Source: Halomicroarcula saliterrae (GTDB lineage: Archaea; Halobacteriota; Halobacteria; Halobacteriales; Haloarculaceae). From it: 64,000 bases of DNA. The stretch's first letter is position 1. Each line of letters begins with the position of its first letter. The DNA lies in the NCBI RefSeq assembly GCF_031624395.1, contig NZ_JAMQON010000001.1, positions 930,001 through 994,000 of the forward strand. The letters run 5' to 3'. This document shows, piece after piece, positions 9,439 to 40,009 of the stretch. Below the pieces are notes generated by a model. It ran no database searches. It was not told the origin of the DNA and saw nothing but the letters and a program-made list of their open reading frames with translations. The position numbers and the translations under genes were made by a program.

Positions 9439-10457
9439 GGCGACACCGGGCCACGGGCCGGTTCGCCCCGCGGCGCGTCCGCCGTCTGGCCCGCTTGCTC
9501 CGCCATCGACACCTGCATCGACCCGCTGGTGTCGTCGAAGTACAGATGGGAGTGCGGGTACGCGATTTCGACGTCGGCGTCGTCCATCAGCGTCCAGAGG
9601 TTCGTCTGGACCTTCGAGCGTGCGGCCAGCAGCTTGTAGGGCTCGGTGACCCAGTACCGGAGGGTCAACAGGACCCCGTGGTCGGCGTAGTTGTTGATGT
9701 AGGCCGTCGGTGCGGCGGGATAGCGGGCCGCGCCGACGCGGATGTCCGGCCCGCCGCCGATGACGTTGTCGACCTCCCGGGCCGCCCGTTCGACGATGCT
9801 CCGGGCCTCCGCGATGTCGCTCTCGTAGGTGACCAGCACGTCGAGCGAGAGCCGCATCCGCGGGTCCTCCGCGGAGTAGTTGATGACGTCCCGTTCGCGC
9901 ATCGTCCCGTTGGGGATGACCAGAAACGAGTTGTCGAGCGTGAAAATCTTCGTGTGGCGCAGCGTGATATCCTCGACGAACCCGCGCTGGTCCCGGTCGG
10001 CGAGCTCTATCATGTCGCCGATCTCGTAGGGCTGGTCGGCGAGCAGGAACACGCCGGAGATGAAGCTCCCGACGATGGGGGCGACGACGACACCGACCAC
10101 GGCCGAGAAGACGGCCACCGACAGCCCGATGTCGGTGATTTTGACGCCCCAGACGCCCAGTATCGACAGGAACCCGAAGGCGTAGATGGCGACACGGATG
10201 CCCCGAAGCGCCATCCGAGTGAGGCTCGGACGGCGGAACCACTGGGCGATACGCCGCCCGAACAGCTGGACGACGAGGCGGGAGACGCCCCACGCCAGCG
10301 CGACGATGATGGCCGTACTGAGCAGGCGGGCCACCCACAGGTCGACAACAAACGGCAGCCACGACAGGAGCGTCTGGGTCACCTCCGATGTCCGAGCGGC
10401 TCCGGCCGGTGTCGCAGTTGGCGTCGTCTGCAAAAGCAAGACGCGACCGGAATGCAT
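9411..10457 (-). CDS. Small-conductance mechanosensitive channel (MscS family)
   Basis: A pore protein that would release solutes on osmotic down-shock. The 348 residues have hydrophobic segments at about 30-55, 85-110 and the pore-lining TM3 region (SAVVGVVVAPIVGSFISGVF). The beta domain follows with YEIGDMIEL and the signature NSFLVIPNGTMRERDVINYS. The C-terminus is Gln/Gly-rich and probably disordered. It is convergent with the USP gene. Confidence 0.9.
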   Translation of the reverse strand: MHSGRVLLLQTTPTATPAGAARTSEVTQTLLSWLPFVVDLWVARLLSTAIIVALAWGVSRLVVQLFGRRIAQWFRRPSLTRMALRGIRVAIYAFGFLSILGVWGVKITDIGLSVAVFSAVVGVVVAPIVGSFISGVFLLADQPYEIGDMIELADRDQRGFVEDITLRHTKIFTLDNSFLVIPNGTMRERDVINYSAEDPRMRLSLDVLVTYESDIAEARSIVERAAREVDNVIGGGPDIRVGAARYPAAPTAYINNYADHGVLLTLRYWVTEPYKLLAARSKVQTNLWTLMDDADVEIAYPHSHLYFDDTSGSMQVSMAEQAGQTADAPRGEPARGPVSPQSSDADGE

Positions 10458-10534
10458 GGAACACAGTGGTTGGTCACGCGAGAAAAGCGTTCCCCCTCGA
10501 AAAAGGCTTGGCCGCCGGTGGCAAAGTGGTATCC

Positions 10535-11281
10535 ATGACCACTGCTAGCGGTCCGGAACCGCGGTTCGAACTGACCGACGGAACTGCCGATATCGACACG
10601 CTCGTCGTCGGCTTCACCGAGTACGGACTGGCCGGATTGACCGCCGTCGACTACCTCTCGGACCAGCTCTCGATGACGCAGGCGGGCCATCTCGTCGCGT
10701 CCGGGCCGCCGTTCATCACGCCGTTCGAGGCGGGCGTCCCGCGCCACCACACGCGGCTGTACGTGGACGAAGCACGGTCACTGGGCGTCGTGGTCGGCGA
10801 GCGAATCGTCCCCGTCGATTCGGCCGAGACGGTCGCCGACGCCGTCGGAGCGCTGTACGACGCCCTCGGGCCGGAGAGCCTCACCGTGCTCTCGGGCGTT
10901 CCGGTCGCGCACGGGCCGGAGGACCACGTGCCGTTCTACATCGCGACCGAGGACTACCGCGACCGGTATCTCGCCGACAGCGATATCCGCCCGATGGGCA
11001 ACGGCTTTCTCGACGGCGTCACGGCCGAGCTGGTGGCCGACGGCATCGGCGACGACGAACGCCCGGTCGGGGTGTTCACGACGCCGGCCCATCCGCAGGC
11101 GCCCGACGCGGCGGCGGCGATTCGACTGCTGCGGGCGCTGACCGAGACCCACGACATCGACGTCGACACCGGACCCCTGGAGACCTTCGCCGCCACCGTC
11201 GAGGCCCAGTATCGGGCGCTCGCGGAACGCATCGAATCGACGGACGAGCGGGCGATGCCGGACGACCGAATGTACATGTGA
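10535..11281 (+). CDS. PAC2 family (proteasome assembly chaperone-like) protein
   Basis: The 248 residues show the PAC2 fold hallmarks: a TLVVGFTEYGLAGLTAVDYL nucleotide-like loop near residue 20, and TVLSGVPVAHGPEDHVPFYI in the middle. In archaea such proteins are thought to be linked to proteasome assembly or ATP-grasp-like folds, but the role is not settled. The frame is open upstream to 10388. The ATG at 10535 was chosen because the upstream codons overlap the divergent MscS gene and do not resemble the family. Confidence 0.8.
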   Translation: MTTASGPEPRFELTDGTADIDTLVVGFTEYGLAGLTAVDYLSDQLSMTQAGHLVASGPPFITPFEAGVPRHHTRLYVDEARSLGVVVGERIVPVDSAETVADAVGALYDALGPESLTVLSGVPVAHGPEDHVPFYIATEDYRDRYLADSDIRPMGNGFLDGVTAELVADGIGDDERPVGVFTTPAHPQAPDAAAAIRLLRALTETHDIDVDTGPLETFAATVEAQYRALAERIESTDERAMPDDRMYM

Positions 11282-36495: not shown

Positions 36496-37707
36496 CTACG
36501 CCCGGACCTCCTCGCTCTCCTCGTCGACGCCGACCTCCTGAGCGAACCGCTCCAGTTCGCTCATCGTGACCTGCTGTTTCTCCGCGCCGAACTCCTTGAC
36601 GCGGCGGGTCACTTCGCGGACTTCGGCGTCCGTCGGGGCGTACCCCGAATCGACCAGACGCTCCCGCACCGAGTGTGCGCCGGTGTGTTTGCCCAGCACG
36701 AGCTCGCGCTCGGCGCCGACCATCTCGGGGGTCATGACGCCGGGCTCGAACGTGTCGGAGTTCTCGATGACGCCCGCGGCGTGGATGCCGCTCTCGTGGG
36801 AGAAGGCGTTGCGCCCGACGATGGGCTTGTTCGCCGGGACCGGGATGTCGGATTTCTCCTCGACCAGTCGCGACAGCTCCGTGATACGGGTCGTGTCGAT
36901 ACCCGTGTTCACGTCGTACAGCGCCTCCAGCGCCATCACGACCTCTTCGTAGGCCGCGTTGCCCGCCCGCTCGCCGATGCCGTTGACCGACACCTGGGCC
37001 TGGCTCGCGCCGGCCTCGAACCCGGAGACGGCGTTCGCCGAAGCGAACCCGAAGTCGTCGTGGGTGTGGACGTCGATTCTCGCGTCCGTGTGCGAGTCGA
37101 CGATTTCGATGAGGTCGTAGAACCGACGCGGCGTCGCGACCCCGCAGGTGTCGGGGATGTTGATCCAATCGGCGCCCGCGTCCGATGTCGCCTCGATGAC
37201 TTCGATGAGGAAGTCCTCCGACGTTCGGGTGGCGTCCATCGGCGAGAACATGCACTCGGCGCCCGCCTCCGTGATGCGCTCTACCGACTCGACGGCCGAG
37301 TCGAGCGCCTCTTGGCGGGTCGCGTGCATGGAGTCTTGTAACTGTACGTCGGACGTCGAGACGAAGGTGTGGACCATGTCCACACCCGAATCCAGGGCTG
37401 CCTCGATATCCTTCTCGACCACACGCGCCAGTCCGCACGTCGTCACGTGGGTGGACTCGGCGATGTCGCGGACCGCCTCGAACTCCGCGTCGGAGTTGAC
37501 GGGGAACCCGGCCTCGATGACGTGGGTCCCCATCTCGTCGAGTACGGCCGCTATCTCGCGTTTGTCCTCGTAGTTGAACGACGTGCGTGGCGACTGCTCA
37601 CCGTCGCGCAGTGTGGTGTCGAAAATACGTGCGTCTGTTATCTCAGACGTGGAATCCAGTGTGCCCTGGAAGAACTCGATCCGCCGGGGATCCCGACGTG
37701 CCCTCAT
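36496..37707 (-). CDS. leuA: 2-isopropylmalate synthase / citramalate synthase, short form
   Basis: Condenses acetyl-CoA with 2-oxoisovalerate (or pyruvate). The 403 residues show FDTTLRDGEQSPRTSF, VHTFVSTSDVQLQDSM and HTHDDFGFASANAVSG with the metal histidines. The C-terminal allosteric LeuA dimer domain of the long form (about 510 aa) is absent. It may thus be insensitive to leucine, or act as a citramalate synthase. It has its own TATA-like box and is separate from the ilvB transcript. Confidence 0.85.
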   Translation of the reverse strand: MRARRDPRRIEFFQGTLDSTSEITDARIFDTTLRDGEQSPRTSFNYEDKREIAAVLDEMGTHVIEAGFPVNSDAEFEAVRDIAESTHVTTCGLARVVEKDIEAALDSGVDMVHTFVSTSDVQLQDSMHATRQEALDSAVESVERITEAGAECMFSPMDATRTSEDFLIEVIEATSDAGADWINIPDTCGVATPRRFYDLIEIVDSHTDARIDVHTHDDFGFASANAVSGFEAGASQAQVSVNGIGERAGNAAYEEVVMALEALYDVNTGIDTTRITELSRLVEEKSDIPVPANKPIVGRNAFSHESGIHAAGVIENSDTFEPGVMTPEMVGAERELVLGKHTGAHSVRERLVDSGYAPTDAEVREVTRRVKEFGAEKQQVTMSELERFAQEVGVDEESEEVRA

Positions 37708-37745
37708 TGTTGGACATAAGCAGGTGATACTGGTCACTTCCGGTA

Positions 37746-37751: not shown

Positions 37752-37851
37752 GTTGTTCATCGGCACGGCGTGGCGGCAGCGACCCGTGACAAGGCGATAC
37801 AGCGCTGGGCCCCGGAGTGTGGACGATTCGTCGGGCGCTGTTCGGGAGACA

Positions 37852-37982
37852 CACCCCACGTTTCCGACGTTTGGGGCTATCCGTAGCCGGCCCTACGTTT
37901 GCGCTGGTCTCGGATATCTGTAGCCCACCCCACGTTTCCGACGTTGCGAACAGGTCGCACACCCACCCCACGTTTCCGTCGT
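37852..37982. repeat. Origin-box-like array downstream of orc/cdc6
   Basis: Four boxes, all in the same direction, fill the gap between leuA and the orc stop. CACCCCACGTTTCCGACGT is exact at 37852-37870 and 37926-37944, has one change at 37964-37982 (TCGT for ACGT), and is degenerate near 37888-37905. The same 19-base word recurs in the upstream origin region. The rest of the 325-bp gap holds only the leuA promoter and a GCCCC/GGGGC palindrome near 37994-38005. In Haloarcula hispanica an ORB-rich region behind oriC2-cdc6E limits initiation, probably by titrating Cdc6E. Confidence 0.8.
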
Positions 37983-38032
37983 AGTTCCCAGTGCCCCGTG
38001 GGGCTACTCAATGGTCCCGATGCTGGGTAGGG

Positions 38033-39265
38033 TTACTCCGTGGACCACTCCTGCATGCGAGTGTCTTCGAGGATAGTCTCCCGGACGATATGTGCGTCCT
38101 CGATGAGACGGTTCTGCAGATGGATGCCACCCGCGCTGCCCTTGTTGATCTTCTCGATTTCGACGATACCGAGAAACGCCTGCTCTTTCAGCAGATCACG
38201 GAACCGGCGGACCGACAGAATATCTAGCTCGACGTGTGCACAGATGCGCTCGTACTGGTCGTACACCTGGCTCGTCAGGAACGAGTCCTCGGCGGAGTTG
38301 AGGCTGAGTTCGGTCAGTGCCAGCAGCGCGGTCTTCGCCTGTGTCGGCGACCCGCTGACGAGCTCCCGGAACCGGTCCTTCTCGGCGTGTTGCTGTGCCT
38401 GTCGGACGTGCGCTTCACGGACAGTATCGGCGTCACTCTCACTCGCGACCTCACCAGCGTGACGGAGGATATCGATCGCCTTCCGAGCGTCGCCGTGTTC
38501 CTGGGCGGCAAACGCGGCAGCCAGCGGGATGACGTCGTCCGTCAACACGTCGTCTTGAAACGCGTCCGTCCGATTGTGCATGATTTCGCGGAGCTGGTTC
38601 GCATCGTAGGGTTTGAAGAAGAGCTCCTTGTGCTGAAAGCTGCTTTTGACCCGCTCGTTGAGCTGGTCGATGTACTGGACTTTGTTGCTGATAGCGATGA
38701 TGCCGATGCTACACGTTATCTTTCCGGCTTCTTCCGCACGGGAGAGCTTCATCAGCAGACTGTCTTCGTCCATCAGGTCGATCTCGTCGAGGATGACGAT
38801 GACCGAATCGAACCGCATGTCCAGAATCCGCCAGAGCAGTTTGTAGTACTTCGAGGTACTGAGACCGGTGTGTGGCACCGCGATATCCGTGACGCCCTCG
38901 TCGTTCAGTTTCATCGCGAGCGACGAGACGACCTGTGTTTCCGTCGTGTCCTCGGCGCAGTCGATATACGCCGTTCCGATATCCACGTCGTCGCCGGCAG
39001 CGTTCTTCGCTCGCTGACAGAGGTGTCTCGAAACGAGTGACTTCCCCGCACCCGTCTTTCCGTAGATCATCACGTTCTCGGGGGAGTAGCCGTGAACGGC
39101 CCCGTTCAAGCGCTTTGCCAGCTTCGAGATCTCCTCGTCGCGCCCGACGATACGGTCCGCCTCCGGGACGTGCCCGATTTTCAGGAGGTCTTTGTTCTTG
39201 AAAATCCGGTGTCCGGAGGTAAAGAGCGGGTCGTCGATAGGGCCTGACGAGGAATCGGATGTCAT
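38033..39265 (-). CDS. Orc1/Cdc6 replication initiator
   Basis: Binds origin boxes and loads MCM. The 410 residues have an AAA+ domain with Walker A GKTGAGKS (69-76), Walker B VIVILDEIDLMD, sensor-1 IIAISNKVQYID, and a C-terminal winged helix (about 320-410). It is one of several Orc paralogues expected in a haloarchaeon. The matching boxes in front of and behind the gene suggest it acts on this origin. Its closest type is probably Cdc6E (inference from the box layout, not from comparison). Confidence 0.93.
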   Translation of the reverse strand: MTSDSSSGPIDDPLFTSGHRIFKNKDLLKIGHVPEADRIVGRDEEISKLAKRLNGAVHGYSPENVMIYGKTGAGKSLVSRHLCQRAKNAAGDDVDIGTAYIDCAEDTTETQVVSSLAMKLNDEGVTDIAVPHTGLSTSKYYKLLWRILDMRFDSVIVILDEIDLMDEDSLLMKLSRAEEAGKITCSIGIIAISNKVQYIDQLNERVKSSFQHKELFFKPYDANQLREIMHNRTDAFQDDVLTDDVIPLAAAFAAQEHGDARKAIDILRHAGEVASESDADTVREAHVRQAQQHAEKDRFRELVSGSPTQAKTALLALTELSLNSAEDSFLTSQVYDQYERICAHVELDILSVRRFRDLLKEQAFLGIVEIEKINKGSAGGIHLQNRLIEDAHIVRETILEDTRMQEWSTE

Positions 39266-39294
39266 CTAGCGTCGAGACGTGTGGGAACAGGGGA

Positions 39295-39303
39295 CATAAA
39301 ACC
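39295..39303 (-). promoter_or_regulatory. TATA-like box of orc/cdc6
   Basis: GGTTTTATG on the minus strand is centred about 34 bp before the ATG at 39265. Initiator binding to the close box at 39318 could affect this promoter. Confidence 0.45.
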
Positions 39304-39365
39304 CGCGGATTTCAAGTCACCGTCTTTCCGACGTTAGAGTCGATATTACGGGCCCCAAAAGGCGT

Positions 39366-39396
39366 GAAATCCTAATATACTTATTCTTATACTTTT
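39366..39396. other. A/T-rich tract, candidate duplex unwinding element
   Basis: About thirty bases, nearly all A or T apart from a few C, stand out sharply in GC-rich DNA. It lies between a partial origin box (39318) and the box-like palindrome (39398). Confidence 0.6.
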
Positions 39397-39469
39397 GCCG
39401 TGTTTCCGACGTAGCTGGCCGGAAACACGGTACCGCGATACGATGCCGACCCGTCGGAGAGAGATGGCG

Positions 39470-39488
39470 CACCCCACGTTTCCGACGT
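39470..39488 (+). repeat. Origin box, left arm of the inverted pair
   Basis: CACCCCACGTTTCCGACGT, identical to the boxes at 37852 and 37926. Confidence 0.8.
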
Positions 39489-39574
39489 ATTTTTCCCCTC
39501 CCTGTCGGCTCACAGCTCGGTGACTACTCCACGGGCGGACTCCACGTGAGTATCTCCCCGTTCCCTCTGTCTCT

Positions 39575-39593
39575 ACGTCGGAAACGTGGGGTG
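39575..39593 (-). repeat. Origin box, right arm of the inverted pair
   Basis: The exact reverse complement of the 19-base box at 39470; the two are 86 bp apart. Confidence 0.8.
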
Positions 39594-39703
39594 GGTGGCT
39601 GCGGGTATCCCCACAGCGTCCCTCTCGACGGTACTGCATCGCGCACGCCAGGCGTCAGACGCGGGGAGCAGATTTTTGCTGGTCGCACGCGTGCGTATCC
39701 ACC

Positions 39704-40009
39704 ATGAGTGATTTCGAGGGGCTGGACCTGCAGGCGGTCGAGGACCAGATGGCGGCCGACGAGGAGACCGGCGGGAGCCACCGGGTCGTCCTCGGGGTAC
39801 TGGACGGAACGACCGACGACGCGGAGTGGGTCGAGGCCATCGAGGAGGGCGCCGTCCTCGTGTTGAACGTCGACGGCGACATGAACGCGCTCGCCTCGGG
39901 CTTTGCGCGGCCGGTGAAAGACGCCGGCGGCGACCTGATGCACTTCCGGGGCTTTCTCATCGTCACCCCCGCGGGCGTCACTATCGACAAGAACCGACTG
40001 GACACCTGA
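39704..40009 (+). CDS. Conserved haloarchaeal protein (DUF5779-like)
   Basis: A 101-residue soluble acidic protein. It starts MSDFEGLDLQAVEDQMAADE and has a beta-rich middle (AVLVLNVDGDMNALASGF, LIVTPAGVTIDKNRL). The pattern fits DUF5779; no activity is known. A TATA-like GATTTTTGC at 39669-39677 precedes the ATG by about 31 bp. It is the first gene beyond the origin. Confidence 0.75.
   Translation: MSDFEGLDLQAVEDQMAADEETGGSHRVVLGVLDGTTDDAEWVEAIEEGAVLVLNVDGDMNALASGFARPVKDAGGDLMHFRGFLIVTPAGVTIDKNRLDT

Follow-up and report, generated by a model that had tools for sequence, protein, structure and literature searches.

The orc locus and its boxes

The 64-kb stretch of DNA analysed here, hereafter the window, carries an intact minus-strand orc gene whose product retains both its AAA+ and its winged-helix domain (Table 1). 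Five copies of the 19-base word CACCCCACGTTTCCGACGT, four of them perfect, flank this gene. As described in the initial annotation, two of them (39470, plus strand; 39575, minus strand) form an inverted pair upstream of orc. Three or four same-direction copies had also been reported behind the stop codon; three of these, at 37852, 37926 and 37964 (all plus strand, the last with one mismatch), were recovered, whereas the fourth (37891-37909) scored below 10 bits with a weight matrix from relatives and was rejected. Two incomplete boxes, at 39398-39412 and 39320-39334, were found beyond those originally listed.

Table 1 Coordinates of genes, boxes and other features at the orc locus (window positions).
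Feature	Position	Strand	Basis or remark
leuA-type gene (HMGL-like), left neighbour of insertion site	36496..37737	-	
orc cassette, absent from the leuA-DUF5779 gap of congeners	37781..39635	.	Empty-site comparison with G009, G017 and G022; neighbours in 29 further loci of the genus
Downstream box 3, gene-oriented '-'	37852..37870	+	CACCCCACGTTTCCGACGT match
Downstream box 2, gene-oriented '-'	37926..37944	+	CACCCCACGTTTCCGACGT match
Downstream box 1, gene-oriented '-', one mismatch	37964..37982	+	50 nt past orc stop
orc, 410 aa, Orc4-type Orc1/Cdc6 initiator	38033..39265	-	AAA+ domain, Cdc6 lid, C-terminal winged helix
TATA-like element (TTTTAT), orc promoter	39296..39301	-	Position conserved in Orc4-type family
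Damaged form of the box found at -69 in relatives	39320..39334	+	Sequence comparison with relatives
30-bp stretch, 83% AT, remaining candidate melting element	39367..39396	.	Top 0.014% of 30-bp windows of the contig
Incomplete box with the TTTCCGACGT part but no full G-string	39398..39412	+	Gene-oriented at about -147; half box kept in relatives
Upstream box, gene-oriented '-' at -223	39470..39488	+	Place shared with nearly all relatives (about -222)
Spacer between inverted boxes, 86 bp, GC-rich	39489..39574	.	252-394 bp AT-rich core there in relatives
Upstream box, gene-oriented '+' at -328	39575..39593	-	Inverted partner of the box at 39470..39488
DUF5779 gene, right neighbour of insertion site	39704..40009	+	

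The boxes proved to be specific to this locus. Shuffles of the window yielded 0.05 matches to CACCCCACGTTTCCGACGT at up to three mismatches, and at the same threshold the whole genome (4.195 Mb) contained no match besides the five at orc and none at all to a reversed control pattern. The weight matrix, built from 228 sites of relatives with the window locus left out, assigned 31-38 bits to the five window boxes; in the 1.45-Mb contig, no other site exceeded 11.6 bits. Shuffles, genome-wide search and weight matrix thus rule out a chance scatter of boxes, which are confined to the orc locus and not spread elsewhere in the genome. In a separate observation, a different Orc, approximately 52% identical to that of the window, was found in another genome (G019:C37, locus L149, gene at 9571-10851) with three boxes of the same core downstream of its gene, one of them identical to the 19-base word; to judge from this locus, sister Orc families may share one recognition word.

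Assignment of the initiator to the Orc4-type family

The window Orc was 81.7-84.1% identical to members of an Orc4-type family, which occurs on plasmids and chromosomes across many haloarchaeal genera and includes the protein annotated as Orc4 on pNRC200 of Halobacterium NRC-1. It therefore lies above the cut-off of at least 80% Orc identity used for origin families (PMC3528665) when compared with Orc4-type replicators. The orc4 gene of pNRC200 could be deleted (PMC1906834). Phylogenetic analysis placed the window Orc inside the Orc4-type clade with 100/100 support, divided from Cdc6E by a 97/95 branch, and its identity was 32% to Haloarcula Cdc6E and 36% to Cdc6A. When compared to its relatives, the orc gene had a dN/dS of 0.05-0.09 (dS above 1.2), and 267 of 278 residues invariant among the relatives were retained; judged from these comparisons, the protein is under strong purifying selection.

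An oriC2-type origin had originally been proposed for this locus. Cdc6E was located in congeners by the published marks of its locus, i.e., an rRNA operon approximately 20 kb away and an 11-copy array directly downstream (PMC4441112, PMC3936714). The gene was present in 16 of the 32 genomes of the genus and absent from this one. The arrangement of Cdc6A, rRNA operon and Cdc6E agrees with published descriptions, which, together with an Orc on contig C4 of G015 whose coordinates equal those on the Haloarcula pelagica plasmid NZ_CP126164.1, suggests that the genus is Haloarcula. Each of five Cdc6E loci carried 10-12 downstream boxes of a different sequence, CACCACCCTGCAAGTGTTC, to which this genome offered only two matches with three mismatches, corresponding to chance level. 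No rRNA operon was found near orc within the 64-kb window, which reaches at least 24 kb to either side. The low identity to Cdc6E, the separate clade, the different box and the lack of Cdc6E in this genome together rule out membership of the oriC2/Cdc6E group, and the oriC2-type label cannot be upheld. Read literally, the initial annotation describes a homologue of oriC2-cdc6E; equal box polarity on both sides of orc speaks for such a homologue, but given the divergent Orc and box, the missing rRNA operon and a Cdc6E gene found in half of the congeners and not here, this reading has a negligible probability and is, by sequence comparison, already refuted as to descent. The annotation had set against itself an Orc outside the Cdc6E group combined with boxes scattered at random; the Orc does lie outside that group, and the boxes are not scattered.

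An Orc group approximately 44% identical (L130-L136) was also considered as a Cdc6E candidate and rejected, as it has neither an rRNA operon within 10 kb nor an 11-box array. In a congener without Cdc6E (L159, G013:C1 near 2288150), another Orc, 41% identical to Cdc6E, has an rRNA operon about 28 kb away and is possibly a replacement at a place similar to that of Cdc6E.

Chromosomal insertion, box layout and the missing core

In most congeners, leuA and the DUF5779 gene lie side by side and point away from each other, their start codons roughly 110-490 bp apart, and in none of the congeners was an orc gene found in this gap. Homology to the empty sites of G009, G017 and G022 ends at 37763-37780 on the left and resumes at 39636-39642 on the right, which places the cassette edges at 37764-37781 and 39635-39641 and therefore gives a cassette of about 1.87 kb. 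Plasmid relatives are often flanked by a type B DNA polymerase gene, which directly follows the array, and by a small gene ahead of the origin; both are missing here, and orc is the sole gene of the cassette. Approximately 20 of 38 relatives (L016-L050) have the polymerase gene after the Orc4-type array, and the pairing suggests that replicator and polymerase gene form a mobile replication module. In two close relatives, G017 and G022 (L102, L103), the leuA-DUF5779 gap contains a different small ORF of around 80 codons, and the gap may be a favoured insertion place. The window contig is collinear with the complete G017 chromosome, on which the corresponding site lies 49% of the circle from oriC1. 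A second Orc4-type locus was not found in this genome. For comparison, the Haloarcula chromosome of G027 (L137, G027:C1:1737501-1757500) has, in addition to Cdc6A and Cdc6E, an Orc4-type replicator whose core is intact, and provides a natural counterpart to the window copy.

Read in gene orientation, Orc4-type relatives typically have '+' boxes at about -608 and -542 and '-' boxes at about -222 and -69, with 3-10 downstream boxes in all loci but one; these were '-' in 156 of 156 cases, a set that includes the window copy. The Cdc6E loci have a '+' box at -454 and '-' boxes at -102 and -56, and here too all downstream boxes (57/57) were '-'. This polarity rule spans loci L150-L154 (Cdc6E) as well as L016-L050 and L137-L139 (Orc4-type). 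The window, with '+' at -328, '-' at -223 and three '-' boxes downstream, has boxes of the family polarity on both sides of orc. A box family of its own around orc and a one-direction downstream array, both noted at the outset, are thus present and arranged as at oriC2, with equal polarity and three boxes directly downstream of orc versus 10-12 at Cdc6E loci. Because its box polarity matches that of Cdc6E and Orc4-type loci alike, the window locus follows, or once followed, the oriC2 plan without being a member.

Among the closest known systems, the orc4 locus of pNRC200 (Halobacterium NRC-1) has an Orc approximately 82% identical to that of the window, the same box and polarity, and the -222, -147 and -69 places. 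In contrast to such plasmid replicators, the window copy is chromosomal, has no adjoining polB, carries one '+' box instead of two and lacks the AT-rich core. The oriC2-cdc6E-oriC2D locus of Haloarcula hispanica (PMC3936714) shares inverted boxes upstream, a one-direction array downstream and identical polarity with the window, but differs in having an unrelated Orc family (32%), another box, about 11 boxes instead of three, a 333-bp core and an rRNA operon close by.

Where the inverted pair could be made out, in 54 relatives, the inner box edges are 252-394 bp apart, and oriC2 loci have approximately 333 bp between their inverted boxes. The cores of the relatives contain 60-bp stretches at 62-78% AT, and most share a TAGATTRAAG motif. 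The window core comprises 86 bp at 41% AT, and the motif was not found in this spacer. Over the softest 40 bp, its computed duplex energy was -55.0 kcal/mol versus a mean of -45.1 (sd 2.3) for the relatives, i.e., the duplex is about 10 kcal/mol more stable. The approximately 300 bp of AT-rich DNA that lies between the inverted boxes of Orc4-type replicators is therefore missing; the boxes are near perfect, and the DNA between them can no longer be aligned with that of the relatives. Given the 86-bp length, the 41% AT and the absent motif, we regard the window copy, from sequence comparison, as a truncated member of the Orc4-type replicators, which puts in doubt the original claim of an origin.

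None of the other copies among the 60 is as AT-rich at that position as the 30-bp stretch at 39367-39396, which lies outside the inverted pair, between the two incomplete same-direction boxes. This stretch is unlikely to be the orc promoter, as a TATA-like element is found at about -33 across the family. The main rival to a dormant replicator is an active second chromosomal origin, oriC2-like with an Orc4-type initiator, in which Orc on the upstream boxes would melt this stretch and the downstream array would limit firing by titration. Such an origin, which we consider possible though clearly the less probable reading, would agree with the polar box layout identical to that of active oriC2, with the AT-richness of the stretch, with selection on Orc and boxes, with the absence of Cdc6E, and with a site about opposite oriC1 (by collinearity with G017), where a second origin would help most. 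It is difficult to reconcile with the loss of the AT-rich core seen within the inverted boxes of the 54 relatives and of oriC2, and with incomplete, one-direction boxes on either side of the remaining stretch. GC skew, suggested earlier as a check, does not change at the site, a point against an active second origin; taken by itself, the contig-wide analysis, with no extremum at orc, neither supports nor refutes an origin. The strongest skew changes on the contig lie at 483 kb and at 846 kb, the latter inside an AT-rich island left of the window (G000:C1:800000-900000; 59-61% GC versus approximately 67% for the contig), which accounts for the minimum of the cumulative GC skew on this contig.

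A probable captured replicator and its boxes

We favour, with a probability of roughly 0.55, a captured Orc4-type replicator that sits in the chromosome between leuA and the DUF5779 gene and is dormant or weak, with putative binding of Orc to both groups of boxes. Locus-specific boxes, a constrained Orc4-type Orc, an empty site in congeners and a missing AT-rich core were observed directly, and boxes that occupy the -222, -147 and -69 places of the family, with the same box in all relatives, are consistent with such a capture. Initiator gene and boxes would have entered the main chromosome together from the plasmid pool. Orc would then bind all five boxes, upstream and downstream; the upstream boxes would serve initiation and autoregulation, and the three downstream boxes would draw Orc away from them, as has been proposed for oriC2D and Cdc6E (PMC3936714). 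Titration control like that of oriC2 is plausible by analogy because the box layouts match. With the core gone, initiation would probably be weak or nil today, and selection would have retained the interaction between Orc and its boxes. Two points weigh against dormancy: the 30-bp stretch upstream could replace the lost core, and strong constraint on Orc together with perfect boxes is equally expected of an active origin.

There are precedents for both capture and decay. Captured haloarchaeal origins can be dormant, and the dormant oriC4-cdc6H of Haloferax mediterranei is likewise an orc-adjacent replicator that a chromosome has recently acquired (PMC4595724); it replicates a plasmid autonomously, whereas the window copy lacks its core. 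Genes for Orc beside deficient origins also exist, e.g., oriC3-cdc6D of H. hispanica, where orc is similarly retained beside a defective origin part (PMC3528665). There, too few boxes remain, whereas in the window copy the boxes were kept and the core was lost.

Low dN/dS, retention of invariant residues and near perfect boxes show that Orc and boxes have long been under selection. Because the core may have been lost recently or long ago, this selection fits a recently broken origin as well as a box locus maintained without one. One form of the latter would be a decoy, in which the chromosomal Orc and boxes are kept to limit the establishment of Orc4-type plasmids by incompatibility. In H. hispanica, a plasmid with oriC2 is incompatible with the chromosome bearing the same origin (PMC3936714), plasmids with Orc4-type replicators are common among haloarchaea, and a decoy would fit a genome with a single Orc4-type locus in which Orc and boxes were kept and the core was lost. 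However, two Orc4-type loci coexist in another genome (G288), so exclusion is not strict, and the idea rests on one genome; we consider it improbable.

Overall, Cdc6E and Orc4-type initiators, although 32% identical and using different boxes, share one polar layout with distal '+', proximal '-' and exclusively '-' downstream boxes. Because two distant initiator families have the same layout, the downstream array and its direction suggest a general restraint on haloarchaeal replicators and no peculiarity of oriC2. The core-less copy represents a natural case of separation of function, with Orc and boxes present and the melting core absent, and would allow titration to be tested apart from firing.
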